Source: Deinococcales bacterium
GTDB lineage: Bacteria; Deinococcota; Deinococci; Deinococcales; JAAFIG01
Direction: 5' to 3'
Assembly (NCBI GenBank): GCA_013298595.1
Contig: JAAFIG010000002.1
Coordinates: forward strand, 142,781-206,780
DNA length: 64,000 nucleotides
Shown: piece by piece, positions 30,706 to 61,213 of the stretch
How the letters are laid out: each line of letters opens with the position of its first letter
Numbering within the stretch: position 1 is the first letter of the stretch
The notes under the pieces: model-generated
What the model was told of the DNA's origin: nothing
The model's input: the letters and a program-made list of their open reading frames with translations, nothing else
The model's database searches: none
Position numbers and translations under genes: made by a program

Positions 30706-31995
30706 ATGAACCGAATACTCTCAACCCTAAGCCACAGCACTCAGCGATACATCGCAGCTTTTAGTTTACTCTTCCTATTCGCCGCTTGTAACCAAACACC
30801 AACACCAAACAACCCAGACCCAAACAACATAACTGGAATGCAAGTCGAAAACGAAAATGGTACACTCAGCTTAGCCGCAGCCACAACCCAAGGTTTAACA
30901 GGTGATTATTTTGATAACATGGATTTCACTGGAACCAAAAAAACACAAATAGATGCCACCATCAACAAAACATGGAACAACAACAGCCCAGTAACAGGCA
31001 TCGCCAAAACCACGTATAGCGTCAGATGGACAGGTCAAATCCAACCTCAATACACGCAAAAGTACACGTTTTACGTAACCTCGAGTGACGGAGCTAGGCT
31101 TATGGTTAATGGTCAAGCTTTGGTCAATGATTGGAAAGATGGCGTGAACCGAGTTCGTAGTGGAACAGTGGACTTAATAGCCAATACCAAGTACGACATT
31201 CGACTCGAGTACTACCGTAATGCAACCAATGCAGGAGCTGTGAAACTCGAGTGGCAAAGTACGAGCCGAACGAGACAAGTTGTGCCACAAGTAAAATTAT
31301 ACCCAACAGGCAGCAATTCAACTATTGCTTTCAATCTTGTTACTCAAAATGCGAAATTTCAAGCACTAAATTTAGTTGTGAACCAAACAGAAGTTTTTGC
31401 TGTCTTAGGTTCAGATGGAACAATATCAGTCAATATGCCTGAGAAAAATGGCTTAGGATTTGCTATTGCAGCAATTAAACAAAATGTTGTCCAACAATTA
31501 TTTTACATTTCACGATTGAATGATGTTGGCGTTTTTAAAAATGTACTGAAAAATAAGAGTGTTGAAATTCCTAATTTAAGTCAGTTTAGGAATGCCGATG
31601 GCTCATATACCTTGAGTCAACTTCAAAGTGTTGCTAATCTATTGGTAGAAGTAGTTTCAGAAGGCGCTATCAAGAAACAACTTTCAAATGCTCAAACCAC
31701 AAGTATCAAACCACAATGGGCTGAGTCTATTCCAAATGCGTGTAATTGGATTCCACCACCTCCAAGTTGTACCAATGGTAATTGCTCCATAATTGCTGAT
31801 GCGTATAGAGAGGCAGTGTGTGGTGTTCTTTATGGGACAGGTGAATTTTTGCTGGGTCAGGCGGCAGGAGCCATACTGACAGGTGGGTGGGCAAATGTAG
31901 CCTTTTATAGGTGGGTCAGCACCACTAGATGTGCTTTTGAGACTCACTTCATTAGAATCGTTATGGGAAAAGTATATTCTATGTATCTCTGGTAA
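30706..31995 (+). CDS. PA14-domain lipoprotein, probably frameshifted at the 3' end
   Basis: A 429-residue product. The signal peptide ends in FLFAAC with C28 as lipidated residue, followed by a Pro/Asn-rich linker. A PA14 domain spans about 62-195 (GLTGDYFDNMDFTG ... FYVTSSDGARLMVNG ... VKLEWQS); PA14 is a carbohydrate-binding beta barrel. The later part has no recognised domain. GGAGGG precedes the ATG. The last 25 codons read poorly and the neighbouring frame opens at 31901 and continues into the next ORF without a signal peptide, so the two may be halves of one gene. Confidence 0.75.
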   Translation: MNRILSTLSHSTQRYIAAFSLLFLFAACNQTPTPNNPDPNNITGMQVENENGTLSLAAATTQGLTGDYFDNMDFTGTKKTQIDATINKTWNNNSPVTGIAKTTYSVRWTGQIQPQYTQKYTFYVTSSDGARLMVNGQALVNDWKDGVNRVRSGTVDLIANTKYDIRLEYYRNATNAGAVKLEWQSTSRTRQVVPQVKLYPTGSNSTIAFNLVTQNAKFQALNLVVNQTEVFAVLGSDGTISVNMPEKNGLGFAIAAIKQNVVQQLFYISRLNDVGVFKNVLKNKSVEIPNLSQFRNADGSYTLSQLQSVANLLVEVVSEGAIKKQLSNAQTTSIKPQWAESIPNACNWIPPPPSCTNGNCSIIADAYREAVCGVLYGTGEFLLGQAAGAILTGGWANVAFYRWVSTTRCAFETHFIRIVMGKVYSMYLW

Positions 31996-33532
31996 ACTAC
32001 CATCTGATAATGCTGGAACAATGATTGTTGGATGTCCACCAAAGATAATTACACCTGAACCAATAGGAATCCGTAAACCCCTCAATACATTAGGTACTGT
32101 AGCAATTCCAGTAAAAAGTGATGGTACTTCTGATTCAACACTCCAATATAGTCCTTACCTTGTAGGAAGTACCTCAAAAGGAAAACAAATACGTGTTATT
32201 TTTTCTGAAGATGGTGAAGTATTTAAACTTTTAAAGGGAGACGAGTATGCTCATTTTCTGAGCTATGCTTGTCCAGATATACCTTCAGAGTGGGTCGGTA
32301 TTTTATTTTTATACCATAATGCGCTTACGAACCAATCTGGTATGGCAGTCGATAATCCGTATAAAATCAGTGTAAAAATAACTTGTTATGGTGAACCCAG
32401 ACTAATAGTAGACCCTAATCCTGTACTAATGTCTACGCCAGTTAATACGATATTACCAACTAAAGTAGTTAAGATGACAAACGATGGTACAGAAGTTCTC
32501 GAGATTACAGGTTTTGATTACAAGGAAATCAAGCCTTTAACGGGTAGCAAAGTCACTCCTTTGTTTCCTGCGGCTTCTACTGCTAATCCGTTAAAAATTG
32601 CTGTGGGCGGAAACAATTTCTTTTCGTTAGACCCCGTTTGCGGTAACACTGCTGGTAAGCTCGAGGGTACTATTACTATCTCGAGTAATGCTACGAATGT
32701 GCCCAATGGAACTTTAAGCGTAGGCGTAACGCTCGAGTGTACTGGTGCGCCTCAAATCTTGGCAACACCTAATCCTCTGAACTTGTACGCACCAAATACT
32801 TTTTCTGGTTACGCAGATTCTATCGCAGGTGGCATTATTAAGGTAGAAAATAAGGGTGTTGGAAATTTAATTATTAAAAACACTACTTTGGTAGGCAATA
32901 AGTTTAGTATGCCTAATCCTATTGCACCAAATACGGTCATTGCACCAAATGACTTTCAGAATGTAGTAATTCAGGGTGTTTGTGATAAAACTACGACTGT
33001 TTATTCTGGAACATTGAAAATTGAAAGTAATGACCCAAGTTCACCGTTTACGGATGTTGGGCTTACACTCGAGTGTTTCTGGCAAGTGAATACGGGTGTT
33101 GAGATTAGAACGTTCCAGAGAGGTGGTAGTTTTGGATCAAGACAAAATCTCATTACAGGTCAATCAGAATGCTATGAAGAACATAACATAACCATTTTTG
33201 CTAGTGTATATAATGGTGGTGTCATTATAAATCAACCAAATGACATTTCTTGGAGTAGTGGTGAAGGTCAAGTTAATGTTCTAAGCGTTTCAGGTTCTAT
33301 AGATTGTAGGGCAGAGTTTAGCGCTAAATGGAACGCAGCTAAAGATGGGTATTACAATCTTGCGAAGAAGATTATAGTGGATAAGTTGAAACCGTATTAT
33401 CGGTTGAAAATTCTAAATTTACCAATGGATAGCTTCGATTATACATTGCTTCCTAACTATGGTGCTACTAATCAAATTGAATTAAATTGTACAACGCCTA
33501 ATAGTGTTTATTATTGTGGTGGTAAGCTTTAA
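31931..33532 (+). CDS. Secreted Ig-like (ASPM/choice-of-anchor) repeat protein, possible 3' half of a split gene
   Basis: 533 codons from a GTG. Two or three related beta-sandwich repeats are visible: PRLIVDPNPVLMSTPVN..., PQILATPNPLNLYAPNTF... and neighbouring KMTNDGTEVLEITGF / KVENKGVGNLIIKNT; each ends with SVGVTLEC or DVGLTLEC. These resemble ASPM-SPD2-Hydin-like repeats of extracellular proteins. No signal peptide is present, which is odd for such a protein and supports a frameshift between this ORF and the PA14 lipoprotein (overlap 31931-31995). CTCGAG is absent from about 31252 to 32497. It ends before the terminator at 33566. Confidence 0.65.
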   Translation: MLLRLTSLESLWEKYILCISGKLPSDNAGTMIVGCPPKIITPEPIGIRKPLNTLGTVAIPVKSDGTSDSTLQYSPYLVGSTSKGKQIRVIFSEDGEVFKLLKGDEYAHFLSYACPDIPSEWVGILFLYHNALTNQSGMAVDNPYKISVKITCYGEPRLIVDPNPVLMSTPVNTILPTKVVKMTNDGTEVLEITGFDYKEIKPLTGSKVTPLFPAASTANPLKIAVGGNNFFSLDPVCGNTAGKLEGTITISSNATNVPNGTLSVGVTLECTGAPQILATPNPLNLYAPNTFSGYADSIAGGIIKVENKGVGNLIIKNTTLVGNKFSMPNPIAPNTVIAPNDFQNVVIQGVCDKTTTVYSGTLKIESNDPSSPFTDVGLTLECFWQVNTGVEIRTFQRGGSFGSRQNLITGQSECYEEHNITIFASVYNGGVIINQPNDISWSSGEGQVNVLSVSGSIDCRAEFSAKWNAAKDGYYNLAKKIIVDKLKPYYRLKILNLPMDSFDYTLLPNYGATNQIELNCTTPNSVYYCGGKL

Positions 33533-55908: not shown

Positions 55909-56715
55909 ATGCAACTCGAGACTTACTTCAAACGCATTGGCTACACAGGGACTCGAGAACCAACTTTGGCTGTGTTGAACGCCGTACAAGAAGCCCATCT
56001 GAAAAGTATTCCTTACGAGAATCTGGATATTCATCTCGGGCGAACACTACCAATTAGTGAAACTCGAGCTTATGAAAAAATTGTGCTCGAGCAACGCGGC
56101 GGTTGGTGTTACGAAATGAATTCGTTGTTTGCTTGGGCTTTACGCGAAATGGGTTTTGTTGTGCAGTACCACTCGAGTGCCGTATTGCGTCCAAATGGTT
56201 TAACCCCAGATGGCGATCATTTGATTTTACTGGTACAACTCGAGGAGGGTACTTTCCTTGCTGATGTTGGTTTTGGTGATGGTTCAATTCCTGTTTTACC
56301 TTTGCAGCAAGGCACGTACCAATCGGGATTTCTCGAGTATGGCATGAGTTACACTGCGCCTTATTGGACAATGCACAACCCAAAACAGAGCAACACCGCA
56401 GGTTTTGCTTTTACCCTCGAGCCAAGGCAACTCAAGTTTTTTCAGGAGCGCTGCACCGATTTACAAACCAATGCCGAAAGCGGATTTGTCCGTACTACCG
56501 TTTGTCAGCGGATTACTCGAGAAGCGCTTTATACCTTGCGTGGCGCAGTGCTAGGCGAATTAACAGCAAGTGGCAAAACTGAACGTACTCTCAAGAATAT
56601 GGCAGATTATCAAAAAGTTTTACTCGAGAAATTCAACCTCGAGTTACCAGAAGCACCGATGCTCTGGGAGAAAATCTGGGCACGGCATCTCGAGTGGGTA
56701 AATAGACTAGGTTAA
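55909..56715 (+). CDS. Arylamine N-acetyltransferase
   Basis: A 268-residue NAT. The catalytic cysteine lies in RGGWCYEMNSLFAWAL (near residue 68), the histidine in GDHLILLVQLEEG (near 107) and the aspartate in FLADVGFGDG (near 122), completing the Cys-His-Asp triad. It transfers acetyl groups from acetyl-CoA to arylamines or hydrazines. The start at 55909 has a weak upstream CAAAAT. It converges on the SIR2-domain gene with a 9-base overlap. Confidence 0.94.
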   Translation: MQLETYFKRIGYTGTREPTLAVLNAVQEAHLKSIPYENLDIHLGRTLPISETRAYEKIVLEQRGGWCYEMNSLFAWALREMGFVVQYHSSAVLRPNGLTPDGDHLILLVQLEEGTFLADVGFGDGSIPVLPLQQGTYQSGFLEYGMSYTAPYWTMHNPKQSNTAGFAFTLEPRQLKFFQERCTDLQTNAESGFVRTTVCQRITREALYTLRGAVLGELTASGKTERTLKNMADYQKVLLEKFNLELPEAPMLWEKIWARHLEWVNRLG

Positions 56716-59700
56716 ACCAATCTTAACCCAAGGTTTCCAAACTTCTGGTAACACATCTTTTTTCGCTTCGGTCTGCCATAACTCGAGAGCATCTGGGATT
56801 GGCTTATTTTTATGTTGAAACTCCCTCCATAACTTAGCCGCTAGTTTTGATGCTCTTGCCCGTAAGATGGGACGGTCTGTCCATGAAACTCCTATAAATG
56901 TATCCAAATCATCACCAGCTTTAATCTGCGAATCTAATAAGGCACGGTGTAAAATGCTCAAAATAATTGGCATTACTGAATCAGGTAGGTTTGCTGCAAA
57001 AGTATCTTCACTGACCGCTTCCCACATGGTCTCTGTCGCAGCATGATTTGTAAATGGTAGATTGTACAAACACAGTTCAATTAAGCGTTCTGGGCAAGTC
57101 CGTGTATTACTCTTTTTTGTATAGTTTAACCAGCGCATAATTCCAAAACCTGTACTTGTACTAAGTTTGTAATCAGAACTTGTTAAGTCTTTAGTAAATT
57201 GCTTTTCGAGTTCTTCCTTAGAAATCTGGTTTGTTAAAAGTTTAGTAGGTGCGATTGCTGCTAAATTTATACCTTCATTTTCGATAGTCTCAAACCAATT
57301 TGCAATTTTCAACTTATTGGTTTTTGAAAGAGGAAGTAATTTAGGTATTAAAAAATCGACTGTTACCATGATTGCTCTGATTATTTGATCTTTCTTACTC
57401 CATTGACTATCATCTTTGACAAAAGTAACCCCATCATCTTTCCACCAACTAAGAATATTGTCGAGTAAAGCTGTAAGTTCTTTTTGACTAAATTCTATTG
57501 AGCTGTCTGGGTGGAGCAGGGTAGTTAACTCTTTGAAAAAATAACTATTTTCATCTGGACCTAAAGCGTAATTATTGTCTGGATTTCTGATTTTTGGTAC
57601 TGCCGAATGAATATAGTGTTGTTTGATTGTTTGTAAGACGTTGTTTTGTGGCGGATGAGGTAGTTTTAGGTAAGCTGTTTTGTAAAAATTTAAAAAAACT
57701 GGTAAATGACCCTGTTTTGTATCATTCCAAATTCGTTCTCCAAATAACTCTAGTTCCAACCTATTCAGAGCATGTTTTTCGGATAAAAAAGATAGTCGCA
57801 AGATGGCTCTACGTTGAGTTTCTCTATTCTTGGATTCAGCTAGGAAAAGTAATTTTTTTACTATACTTCTATCAACTCCTAAATCGATATTAAAAGATTC
57901 TTGATAAAGAAAAGCAGCACTAAAAGGCTCTGGGTATTCTGTTGCTATTTGCCCCTGAGCAAAGTTTTCTTCCCCAGGAATGGGAAGCTCAAGTAAGTAT
58001 GGTATTTTGGGAACAATATCCTTTATTTGTAATGTGGCACAAGTCCTTTCAAAAGCATTTCGCAAAGGGGTTTGTAAAAACATCCAAGTCTGCACTCGTG
58101 GCAACTTGAAAACTTGAATAATTAAGTCTAAGAAATGAAGACGCTTTTCCAAAGACATTCGTAAAGTAAGTCGAGAAAGAATCTCTGTGCCATATTCAAA
58201 AATTACGTCGTCATAGTGTCTTCCTGGTTCTATTTCAAATTGATTGACATTTTTTTCGGTGCATTCAATTGCTTTTTTTAAAGCAATGAGCAATAGTTCA
58301 ATAATTTCTGAAACATTACTTTCGGGTAATGCCAACACTCCTATTCTAGTGAAATGTTCTTCAATAAAGTTTTTATCACCACACCGTATTGCATGAAATG
58401 TAGCGATGATGGGAGATTTTCGCCATAGTTGAACTATCGATTTTGTAACAGCATCTTTATGGATTGAAACATTCCCAATTTTGTAGGGTGTAGCACCTTG
58501 TACAGTCATTTCAAGAAATGCAACTGCTTGTATAAAATCAAACTCGGTGTTGTTTCTTGTTGAATGGGAACGTGTATAGACTTGAGGATCAAAACTATTT
58601 CGACCACTACTCTGCTTTAAGCTAGGTGGAATAATTCGGAATGGTATGTCTCCTTCAGTATTCGTAATTTCGGGATTAGGATTGCATAAATCCCGCTCGA
58701 GCTGCTCAAAGCGTTCTTTGGTTTCAATGATAGATGTATCTTTATTTATGAATTTTTGATATTTACCTAAATTTTCAAGTAGATTGAGCGTCCAACCTTC
58801 TTCTGAAAGCCGACCATAGTCGGTAAAATTTCGATTGATACGATTACGGATCTCAGTCAGCGCTTCTGATGCGACTGAAATTGCTTCTTCTATTTTTCCG
58901 AGTTGAGCAAGATAGGCGGCACGACGAGTCTCAAAAAATGGATTATTAAAATCTGGTTTCCAAGATTTTAATATTATGCTTGCAGATTGATGATCCAAGC
59001 AAGAAATAGCAAACTCTAGCTCTTCAAGTTTGATTTTACTATTCCAAGCATTATTATTTAGAGTAACGGATTTTAACGTACTTAGGGTGCTATTGAATAG
59101 ATTTTGATCAAGATTTATCCGTGCAGTCCGTAAGATATTAAATCCAAGATCACGCCAAGCTAGGCTATGGCTATTTTCTATATTCCGTTTCCAAGTTTTA
59201 ATAAAATCTGATAACACTGAGTTAGGTAGCCCAGCAAGCAACATCTCAAACCACCAACAAATTTCGCTTAGAATTTCAAGTTCGAGAGATTTATTTGTAT
59301 TGTGGATTAGCATTTTTGGGTTATTCCATAGCCAGGAAAGCCAAGTATTCCAATCGCGTGATAGTAGTCTAATACCCTGATGCAACCACTTCCGCTGCTT
59401 GGATGGGCAAATTACCCATCCAGCATAACGTTTTCGCATTTCTTTCCAAAGTAATAAACGTTCTCGAAGGGGTGAGCTATCATCATTTGAAATATCTATG
59501 TGATAATCAAAGAGCTTACCAAAATCTAACGGAGTATAACCATCTGGTTCTGAATTGGTTGAAATTTGTTTTTCTTGAAAAGGATTGTATACAGCTGGAA
59601 AATCTTTTGGATTTAATCCTTTACGCTTTTGTAATTCTTCAGTAAACCATTCTAAAGGTGCATGATATTTTTCCAATTCTGAAAGAGGTCGGTCAAACTT

Positions 59701-60486
59701 TACTGTACCTAAGTCAAGAACATTGATGCCTTGAGTCTCGAAATACTGACGTTGGGTTGAATCTATTTTTGTTGTTGTTACAAGTAAGATATGTGGCGCA
59801 TAGTCTCCAAGTTCATCACGAACCCAGCCAGCCCAAGCCTTGAAATTTGGATCATCCCCTGAAAATCCAAGCAAAACGAAGGTGTTTTCCATCAAGGATT
59901 GTTGAACCAAATTGATAAAAGGCGCAAATTTCTTCGGGTATGTTCGGAAATCTTCAGTAGTGATGATAAATGGGCGCTGTGATGGAAAACTGCCATGAAG
60001 TTTAACAATACGTGGTGCGCGGCTCGAAGTAATATCTGGTATATTTGCAACTAAGCTATAACTACGGTCAGTAATAAGTTTGGCAGCATCTTCTAACAGC
60101 GTATCGTAATTTGTTGTAAAAATATCAGTCCAAGGAAGCCGTATCAAATCAGTATGTAACGAACTTGGACTATACGAATCGTTGTCTACAACTTCAAGAA
60201 TAGCTGCTGCGAGTGCATCTTTTCCAAATGTCATTTCAAATTGCCCTGCAATATCTTTGCCATCTCGAGTATTGATGGTTTTCTCAGGTAAATTTAATCG
60301 CTCGCCTAAAAATTTCGTAATTTCCCACCATGTAGGAGCGGGGCGTTGGTCAGTACGATGAAGGACAGCATTTCTACTAAAGCCTGCTCCAATTAAAACA
60401 GAGGCACGTTTTTCCTTGAATAAGCGTCTTGCTAACCAATCAATTTGCTGCTCAACAATAGGTGGAATCTCGGTGGCTTTTAACAT
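56707..60486 (-). CDS. Giant SIR2-domain protein, putative anti-phage NADase (DSR-like)
   Basis: A 1259-residue protein. An N-terminal SIR2-like domain shows GAGFSRNA (33-40, NAD loop), TTNYDTLLED (N126, D128), KLHGS (H164) and LLGFSGDDPNF (206-215). The remaining 900 residues are helical with no recognised domain. This is the plan of defence-associated sirtuins, which sense phage proteins with the large C-terminal part and degrade NAD+. The region is AT-rich and has only 3 CTCGAG sites in 3.8 kb, so it was probably acquired recently. Yet its start carries a native-like TAGACT-6-ATG. No second defence gene is adjacent. Confidence 0.82.
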   Translation of the reverse strand: MLKATEIPPIVEQQIDWLARRLFKEKRASVLIGAGFSRNAVLHRTDQRPAPTWWEITKFLGERLNLPEKTINTRDGKDIAGQFEMTFGKDALAAAILEVVDNDSYSPSSLHTDLIRLPWTDIFTTNYDTLLEDAAKLITDRSYSLVANIPDITSSRAPRIVKLHGSFPSQRPFIITTEDFRTYPKKFAPFINLVQQSLMENTFVLLGFSGDDPNFKAWAGWVRDELGDYAPHILLVTTTKIDSTQRQYFETQGINVLDLGTVKFDRPLSELEKYHAPLEWFTEELQKRKGLNPKDFPAVYNPFQEKQISTNSEPDGYTPLDFGKLFDYHIDISNDDSSPLRERLLLWKEMRKRYAGWVICPSKQRKWLHQGIRLLSRDWNTWLSWLWNNPKMLIHNTNKSLELEILSEICWWFEMLLAGLPNSVLSDFIKTWKRNIENSHSLAWRDLGFNILRTARINLDQNLFNSTLSTLKSVTLNNNAWNSKIKLEELEFAISCLDHQSASIILKSWKPDFNNPFFETRRAAYLAQLGKIEEAISVASEALTEIRNRINRNFTDYGRLSEEGWTLNLLENLGKYQKFINKDTSIIETKERFEQLERDLCNPNPEITNTEGDIPFRIIPPSLKQSSGRNSFDPQVYTRSHSTRNNTEFDFIQAVAFLEMTVQGATPYKIGNVSIHKDAVTKSIVQLWRKSPIIATFHAIRCGDKNFIEEHFTRIGVLALPESNVSEIIELLLIALKKAIECTEKNVNQFEIEPGRHYDDVIFEYGTEILSRLTLRMSLEKRLHFLDLIIQVFKLPRVQTWMFLQTPLRNAFERTCATLQIKDIVPKIPYLLELPIPGEENFAQGQIATEYPEPFSAAFLYQESFNIDLGVDRSIVKKLLFLAESKNRETQRRAILRLSFLSEKHALNRLELELFGERIWNDTKQGHLPVFLNFYKTAYLKLPHPPQNNVLQTIKQHYIHSAVPKIRNPDNNYALGPDENSYFFKELTTLLHPDSSIEFSQKELTALLDNILSWWKDDGVTFVKDDSQWSKKDQIIRAIMVTVDFLIPKLLPLSKTNKLKIANWFETIENEGINLAAIAPTKLLTNQISKEELEKQFTKDLTSSDYKLSTSTGFGIMRWLNYTKKSNTRTCPERLIELCLYNLPFTNHAATETMWEAVSEDTFAANLPDSVMPIILSILHRALLDSQIKAGDDLDTFIGVSWTDRPILRARASKLAAKLWREFQHKNKPIPDALELWQTEAKKDVLPEVWKPWVKIGLT

Positions 60487-60492
60487 TATCTC

Positions 60493-60498
60493 AGTCTA
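60493..60498 (-). promoter_or_regulatory. Leaderless -10 box of the SIR2-domain gene
   Basis: TAGACT on the minus strand followed by GAGATA and the ATG at 60486. Confidence 0.6.
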
Positions 60499-60553: not shown

Positions 60554-61060
60554 TTACTCGAGGAATCGTGTGGTGTTGGCAATTTGCATTCCATTTTCTG
60601 TGAGGTTGTAGTTGCGTTGCCAATGCACAAGTAATGTGTTTTGCTCGAGGTCATCTAAGGTGAGAATCAGTGCTCGAGAGGTGATGTTGGGTAGCACTTC
60701 GAGCAATCTCGAGAAACGATTGTGGTTTTGTAGGGCTTGAATGGTGGGTAATGCCCATTTTTTCAGCAGCGTCTCGGTTTTTGGCTCGAGTTGTTGCAGT
60801 AGCGTATGGGCGTGGGGTGCGAGGTTTTTACCTGTTGTTGTGAGGATGTATTCGGGGCGTAATGGGTGAGCGTAAACGGTGTTGCGTTCGATCAGTTGTA
60901 GGTTTTGCATAATTTGCAGGGTGCGACTGAGAGAATCGCGGCTTAACTCGAGGCGGTTAATCAGCGTGACAAATTTGCTGCCTCCGTTTTGCTTGTGCAG
61001 TTCGGCAAGGATTGGCAGGATCCAGCGGTGGTGGCAGAGTTCGATCAGGGTTGGGTTCAT
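60554..61060 (-). CDS. Double HxlR-type winged-helix regulator
   Basis: About 168 residues made of two related winged-helix units: CHHRWILPILAELHKQNGGSKFVTLINRLELSRDSLSRTLQIMQ (residues 8-50) and KWALPTIQALQNHNRFSRLLEVLPNITSRALILTLDDLEQN (about 93-135). Single HxlR regulators act as dimers; this is a fused pair. The start at 61060 gives the usual HxlR spacing; readings further upstream are unrelated. It is divergent from a VOC gene whose promoter carries a symmetric site (61086-61103), its likely operator. Confidence 0.85.
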   Translation of the reverse strand: MNPTLIELCHHRWILPILAELHKQNGGSKFVTLINRLELSRDSLSRTLQIMQNLQLIERNTVYAHPLRPEYILTTTGKNLAPHAHTLLQQLEPKTETLLKKWALPTIQALQNHNRFSRLLEVLPNITSRALILTLDDLEQNTLLVHWQRNYNLTENGMQIANTTRFLE

Positions 61061-61085
61061 GGTTGTTTGATTCCTAAAGATTATG

Positions 61086-61114
61086 CTCTTGACAGAACAA
61101 GAGTTTTGTATAAA
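61086..61114 (+). promoter_or_regulatory. Promoter and candidate HxlR operator for the VOC gene
   Basis: TTGACA (61089-61094) and TATAAA (61109-61114) suggest a promoter with a short 14-bp spacer (or TAAAAA at 61111 with 16). CTCTTG-ACAGAA-CAAGAG (61086-61103) has perfect 6-bp arms overlapping the -35, as expected for a repressor site. Confidence 0.6.
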
Positions 61115-61213
61115 AATAGTACCAAGAACTTGGAAAGATGTCTGCAAGCTAAGCAACAAAGCGGCATCGCTAAACCTTGTTTACCATAAAAATCGTACCA
61201 AAAGGAGAACACT

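Follow-up and report, generated by a model that had tools for sequence, protein, structure and literature searches.

In the 64-kb window (the whole stretch of DNA that was analysed), the interval 56707–60486 holds one intact long open reading frame, a dsr2-like gene on the reverse strand whose 1259 codons contain no internal stop; it is the sole SIR2_2 gene in the assembly. An earlier note on this DNA ended the gene at 60498, which is 12 bases beyond its ATG. Its description of the gene as distinctly AT-rich, with three CTCGAG palindromes in about 3.8 kb, agrees with our counts: GC content is 37.1% in the gene and 45.5% in the window, and the three palindromes are those listed in Table 1 together with the parts and neighbours of the gene.

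Table 1. Positions of the dsr2-like gene, its parts, its CTCGAG sites and its neighbours in the window.
Feature	Position	Strand	Extent or relation	Basis
dsr2-like gene	56707..60486	-	1259 codons; ATG at 60486, stop 56707-56709	Open reading frame and full-length Dsr2 model matches
SIR2 domain, NADase type	59650..60486	-	Residues 1 to ~279	Fold model; top matches all solved DSR2 chains
C-terminal all-helical HEAT/ARM-like solenoid, presumed sensor	56710..59646	-	Residues 281-1259	AlphaFold model; fold and profile matches
CTCGAG site 1 of 3 in the dsr2 gene	56782..56787	.		
CTCGAG site 2 of 3 in the dsr2 gene	58696..58701	.		
CTCGAG site 3 of 3 in the dsr2 gene	60264..60269	.		
Arylamine N-acetyltransferase gene, resident left neighbour	55909..56715	+	Convergent with dsr2; 9-base overlap of the dsr2 stop	
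HxlR-type regulator gene, right neighbour	60554..61159	-	Upstream of dsr2, same strand	

Pfam recognizes only SIR2_2 in the encoded protein, and the models of two databases for Dsr2 (defence-associated sirtuin 2) match it along its full length, SIR2 domain plus tail: PADLOC PDLC02184 scores 613 bits over residues 11–1243 (positions 9–1208 of the 1222 in the model), and NCBIfam NF041819 scores 616 bits over residues 14–1243. The latter falls well short of the NF041819 equivalog cut-off of 1400 bits, which members from Serratia and Pectobacterium pass with 1420 and 1526 bits. The Dsr1 model (NCBIfam NF041818) gave no match to the protein even at E ≤ 1. Judged by these scores, the protein belongs to the wider Dsr2 family as a distant branch, outside the narrow NCBI equivalog. 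It is 19–28% identical to the other members that we collected, and with identities and bit scores this low, the case for its function is carried by the family and the active site rather than by close orthology.

The active site is well preserved. The SIR2 motifs comprise GAGFSRNA, W53, T124-T125-N126-Y127-D128 and K162-L163-H164-G165, and the NAD-site residues that the earlier note had picked out (GAGFSRNA, N126, D128 and H164) are thus all present, the last three being invariant in 56 of 56 homologues. These three are equated with N133, D135 and H171 of DSR2, whose NADase activity in vitro falls when N133 or H171 is replaced by alanine (PMC10981675). A model of residues 1–500 (pLDDT 78) found only DSR2 entries among its best 50 structure matches, which tells against the absence of an NAD-binding fold. 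Residues 281–1259, modelled by AlphaFold from 48 sequences, form an all-helical chain with pLDDT 82 and pTM 0.86, whose fold matches are HEAT/ARM solenoids of the importin-beta, SF3b and CAND1 type; TM-scores are low, so that these matches point to a class of fold rather than to close homology. A profile match to designed armadillo repeats points the same way, and each of the 50 homologous tails tested matches the Dsr2 model. With Dsr2 matches over its whole length, its catalytic residues kept and a SIR2 fold like that of the solved DSR2 structures, the proposal that this gene encodes a defence sirtuin is well founded, and the gene is an added branch of a known defence family.

How far this kinship extends to the DSR2 of Bacillus subtilis (WP_029317421; PDB 8wy8, 8k98 and others), which is activated by the tail tube protein of phage SPR, is a separate matter. 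One reading is that the window protein senses a phage tail tube exactly as that enzyme does and would be blockable by DSAD1-like proteins. The two share a name, a build (an N-terminal SIR2 domain followed by a long helical tail) and a similar SIR2 domain: partial chains align at 3.3 Å with a TM of 0.83 of the target, and the catalytic N, D and H are conserved along with the C-pocket W. On the other hand, the window protein has 1259 residues to the 1005 of B. subtilis DSR2, with a tail of about 960 rather than about 700, and the profile of its family (A1) covers only the SIR2 part of B. subtilis DSR2, stopping at residue 294. Comparison of the two kinds of tail by hhalign gave a probability of 1.9%, there was no DSR2 chain among the best 50 fold matches of the window tail, which are importin-like solenoids, and neither Dsr2 model matched a B. 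subtilis-type protein from Priestia (L139) that is 67% identical to B. subtilis DSR2 in its SIR2 part. In these tests, then, the Dsr2 of the databases and the DSR2 of B. subtilis appear, by sequence and by model, to share only the SIR2 domain, although their tails may have a weak common origin. Because the tails are unlike in sequence and in best folds, neither the tail-tube trigger nor inhibition by DSAD1 can be transferred by name, and we consider sensing of the B. subtilis kind unlikely here. The earlier note had likened the whole build to known defence sirtuins; a long helical tail does follow the SIR2 domain, but it is a different solenoid from that of B. subtilis DSR2 and does not imply tail-tube sensing.

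The SIR2 domain is also detectably related to that of ThsA, a protein of about 480 residues from the Thoeris system. ThsA carries a SLOG domain and works with a TIR partner, ThsB, whereas in the window protein we saw no SLOG domain, and no TIR partner was seen.

The genomic background against which the gene must be read is unusual. CTCGAG occurs 399 times in the 64 kb, 60-fold above first-order expectation, at a mean of 6.2 per kb in the window (range 2–12 outside dsr2) and 6.0 per kb over 1.06 Mb; the typical background of 7–11 per kb given in the earlier note is too high. At loci of three relatives from the same family the density is 5.6 to 9.8 per kb (excluding the island on G003:C32, described below), and resident loci of these relatives (G001, G002 and G003) use 46–65% of the places where the palindrome could stand. 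Since these occupancies are similar to that of the window genome, the enrichment is at least family-wide. A search of genomes G000–G004 for the XhoI-type endonuclease family (PF04555) gave no matches, the control being likewise silent. In cyanobacteria the over-represented palindrome HIP1 (GCGATCGC) bears on the detection of transferred genes, and its density in two quoted genomes is 855–1,418 per million bases (PMC3497702, PMC4390886). The likeness lies in a short palindrome that is vastly over-represented genome-wide and affects tests for foreign genes; CTCGAG is nevertheless a different and shorter word, denser at about 6,000 per million bases, and its host does not appear to be a cyanobacterium.

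Against this background the dsr2 gene carries three copies where the remaining window would lead one to expect 24.9 (Poisson P = 4e-8), and of all the stretches between CTCGAG sites in 263 kb of contig, the two longest both lie inside it. CTCGAG density drops as GC drops, and with local GC as a covariate a Poisson fit expects 13 copies in the gene (P = 0.001). As a control at the codon level, we counted the places where the amino acid sequence permits CTCGAG synonymously in any frame, and took the fraction of these that is used as the occupancy. Across the ORFs of the contig other than dsr2, CTCGAG stands at 1202 of 2258 possible places; from codon frequencies alone, 92 would be predicted. A survey of 821 ORFs over 1.06 Mb (about 23% of the assembly) gave 5457 of 9251, or 59%; dsr2, at 3 of 31, has the lowest occupancy of all 821 (P = 1.4e-8).

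Might the gene nonetheless be an old resident, its low GC and few CTCGAG sites following from its own AT-rich codons and not from recent arrival? The dependence of CTCGAG density on GC speaks for this, as does the finding that genes below 40% GC in the same genome show an occupancy of 33% (114 of 349) and not 59%. Members of the dsr2 family are moreover AT-rich nearly everywhere and in every host: its AT content exceeds that of the flanks at 52 of the 54 homologous loci compared, and the mean difference is 7.6 points. Low GC was therefore discarded as proof of transfer, being typical of the family nearly everywhere and so weak evidence for the window gene; the suggestion that AT-richness betrays a recent donor does not survive this comparison. 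Distance in codon usage was likewise rejected as a mark of transfer, since overall usage in dsr2 is not unusual (76th of 119 in distance from the host mean). The palindrome count is a different matter. The occupancy of dsr2 is far below that of the AT-rich genes of the same genome (Fisher P = 0.004), and some genes that share its third-position GC reach 50–62%, such as that at 31931–33532 of the window (5 of 8). The CTCGAG deficit thus exceeds what chance or AT-richness would give, and since the congener and nearly every genome of the phylum lack the gene, as set out below, long residence is highly improbable.

The palindrome also singled out other genes. Families were assigned to the genes of next-lowest occupancy only afterwards, once the ranking had been made blind. 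Two defence genes of the same genome were found in this way by low occupancy, an E1-E2-JAB ubiquitin-like fusion (3 of 18; L143:9159–11378) and a gene matched by the PADLOC 'Helicase' model (2 of 14; L161:16428–18542), and a Tn7-like element (C12:92318–97406) contributed TnsB (3 of 14) and TnsC (2 of 11). The second-lowest of the 821 genes encodes an AlgX-like acetyltransferase (2 of 22; L123:11077–12777, on C12); other low scorers are a D12 DNA methyltransferase (1 of 8), an FG-GAP repeat protein (0 of 8) and several ORFs of no assigned family. Given the prominence of defence and transposition genes among the low scorers, the palindrome flags foreign DNA, and the use of its scarcity as a marker of acquired genes, proposed in the earlier note for dsr2, holds up. 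For no other gene tested does a shortage of CTCGAG mark a newcomer as clearly as it does for dsr2.

Several further observations accompany this survey. The AlgX-like gene has near-normal GC and is a further candidate for recent transfer. The Tn7-like element is an AT-rich TnsA-TnsB-TnsC-TniQ set (L127:12318–17406), and on the same contig, C12 of genome G000, there may be type I-E-like cas genes, since models for Cas5e, Cas6e and their relatives match some of the ORFs. Three ORFs (L178:6795–7442, L145:248–1234 and L142:4799–5875) leave every possible CTCGAG site unused and match nothing in Pfam or PADLOC; they are candidates for uncharacterised mobile or defence genes. In the sister genus (G003), contig C32:1–16000 (L010) reads, from its ORFs, as a QueC/QueE/QueD/TGT-like set with large helicase, PLD-like and TniQ-like genes; it is probably a DNA modification island, resembling those of the 7-deazapurine kind. 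Its genes include low CTCGAG scorers (several at 0 of 10, 0 of 4 or 2 of 16), and it adjoins a C-terminal piece of dsr2 at the contig end.

That piece consists of only the last ~80 codons, 54% identical to the window gene, and could be either a remnant or an assembly break. A Dsr2-model match was found in two of 111 genomes of the phylum, namely the window genome and G106, which belongs to another family of the same order, and a tree of 57 homologues places their copies apart: the G106 copy falls in a clade with other taxa (support 1.0), and the window copy lies near plasmid and genome copies from Bacillota (support 0.88). The congener G001, 94% complete, has no dsr2 genome-wide, so that orthologues do not stand at this locus in all close relatives. 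Because the congener and 109 of the 111 genomes of the phylum lack the gene, which has in addition the lowest CTCGAG occupancy of 821 genes, its horizontal acquisition, as the earlier note had supposed, is well supported.

The acquired piece appears to have been small. On the left, the acetyltransferase aligns with its counterpart in G001 as far as residue 262 (~56694), and on the right the HxlR protein aligns with that of G002 as far as residue 194 (~60578); conservation up to these two points limits the insert to ~3.9 kb at most, essentially the gene alone. In G002 the glyoxalase and HxlR genes form the divergent pair but dsr2 is missing, and a phosphorylase-like gene follows HxlR. The right-hand AAA-TPR and ABC genes have their G001 orthologues together on C406, and beyond them stand other genes and not glyoxalase-HxlR-dsr2. 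Rearrangement has left G000 and G001 with different gene orders around this locus, the left side not being conserved, and no clean empty site was demonstrable. We saw no defence gene, integrase or transposase adjoining dsr2 in the window, and no convincing target-site duplication at the insert ends. The only direct repeat flanking the gene, at 56620 and 60554 (12 of 13 positions), was considered as an insert end and rejected; its left copy lies within conserved acetyltransferase coding sequence and contains CTCGAG, and the repeat is probably due to chance.

The wider distribution of the family is sporadic. A single-sequence search of genome contigs gave no relatives, while an alignment search gave 371, and 80 of these were kept. 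The 56 homologues in which N, D and H are invariant span many phyla and include archaea and viral contigs. One homologue (L011) has, as read from the ORFs, an Mrr-like gene and a type I restriction system as neighbours, another (L027) an integrase, and others IS elements; restriction genes, integrases, IS elements and viral contigs are the surroundings expected of defence genes. Among the neighbours of homologues, 280 PADLOC families were matched by 144 genes as against 45 by 131 control genes, the former figure being inflated by redundancy of the methyltransferase models and the latter coming from a control contig that itself has cas-like genes, so that this comparison lends the defence setting weak support.

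It could also be argued that this is an intact-looking SIR2-solenoid gene without function, or one domesticated for a cellular role and not for defence. It stands alone beside metabolic genes, the adjoining HxlR regulator could control it, and the sister genus retains no more of it than the short piece at the contig end. But 1259 codons have been kept without a stop and with the catalytic residues intact, and a sporadic distribution with transfer is typical of defence genes. We regard a loss of function or a cellular role as very unlikely.

The reading that we prefer, with a probability of roughly 0.8, is that the gene is a single-protein anti-phage system of the Dsr2 family, acquired horizontally as an essentially lone gene, which would hydrolyse NAD+ on sensing a phage. 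By analogy with DSR2, in uninfected cells the SIR2 domains would be held inactive, probably within an oligomer. A protein made by the phage would bind the long helical solenoid of the tail, which would thereupon release the SIR2 site, where N126, D128 and H164 would hydrolyse NAD+ to ADP-ribose and nicotinamide; the cell would then stall or die before the phage matures. We infer the NADase activity, the oligomeric restraint, the phage trigger and the abortive outcome from DSR2 and other defence SIR2 proteins. The scarcity of CTCGAG would, on the same reading, reflect a short residence in a genome that fills its possible sites to 59%.

Whether this scarcity can also be read as a clock, as the earlier note had it, is less certain. 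Homologues elsewhere with GC below 42% carry CTCGAG at 6 of 714 possible places (0.8%), and the 3 of 31 in the window gene lies slightly above this near-zero, naive level (P = 0.005). The scarcity does mark acquisition, and the clock may already have started in this gene, but it has no calibration. If the approach to the host level were gradual, dsr2 would, on an uncalibrated scale, have covered about 15% of the distance between the naive level and 59%. A few sites would equally be present if the gene had come from another CTCGAG-rich relative. Tentatively, we suggest that genes of this lineage gain CTCGAG progressively after arrival, so that the filled fraction would be a true clock of residence time with dsr2 among the youngest arrivals, that ranking the genes of the genome blind by this measure would recover the order in which its defence and mobile genes came in, and that the sensor, an importin-like solenoid, would represent phage sensing solved a second time and independently under the name Dsr2.

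For the family, it follows from the comparison of tails that the tail-tube mechanism should not be copied onto genes that databases name Dsr2. For this lineage, CTCGAG occupancy separates foreign from resident genes singly and without relying on GC and, if it could be timed, the gain of CTCGAG after arrival would tell when defence genes came in, a date that can seldom be had.
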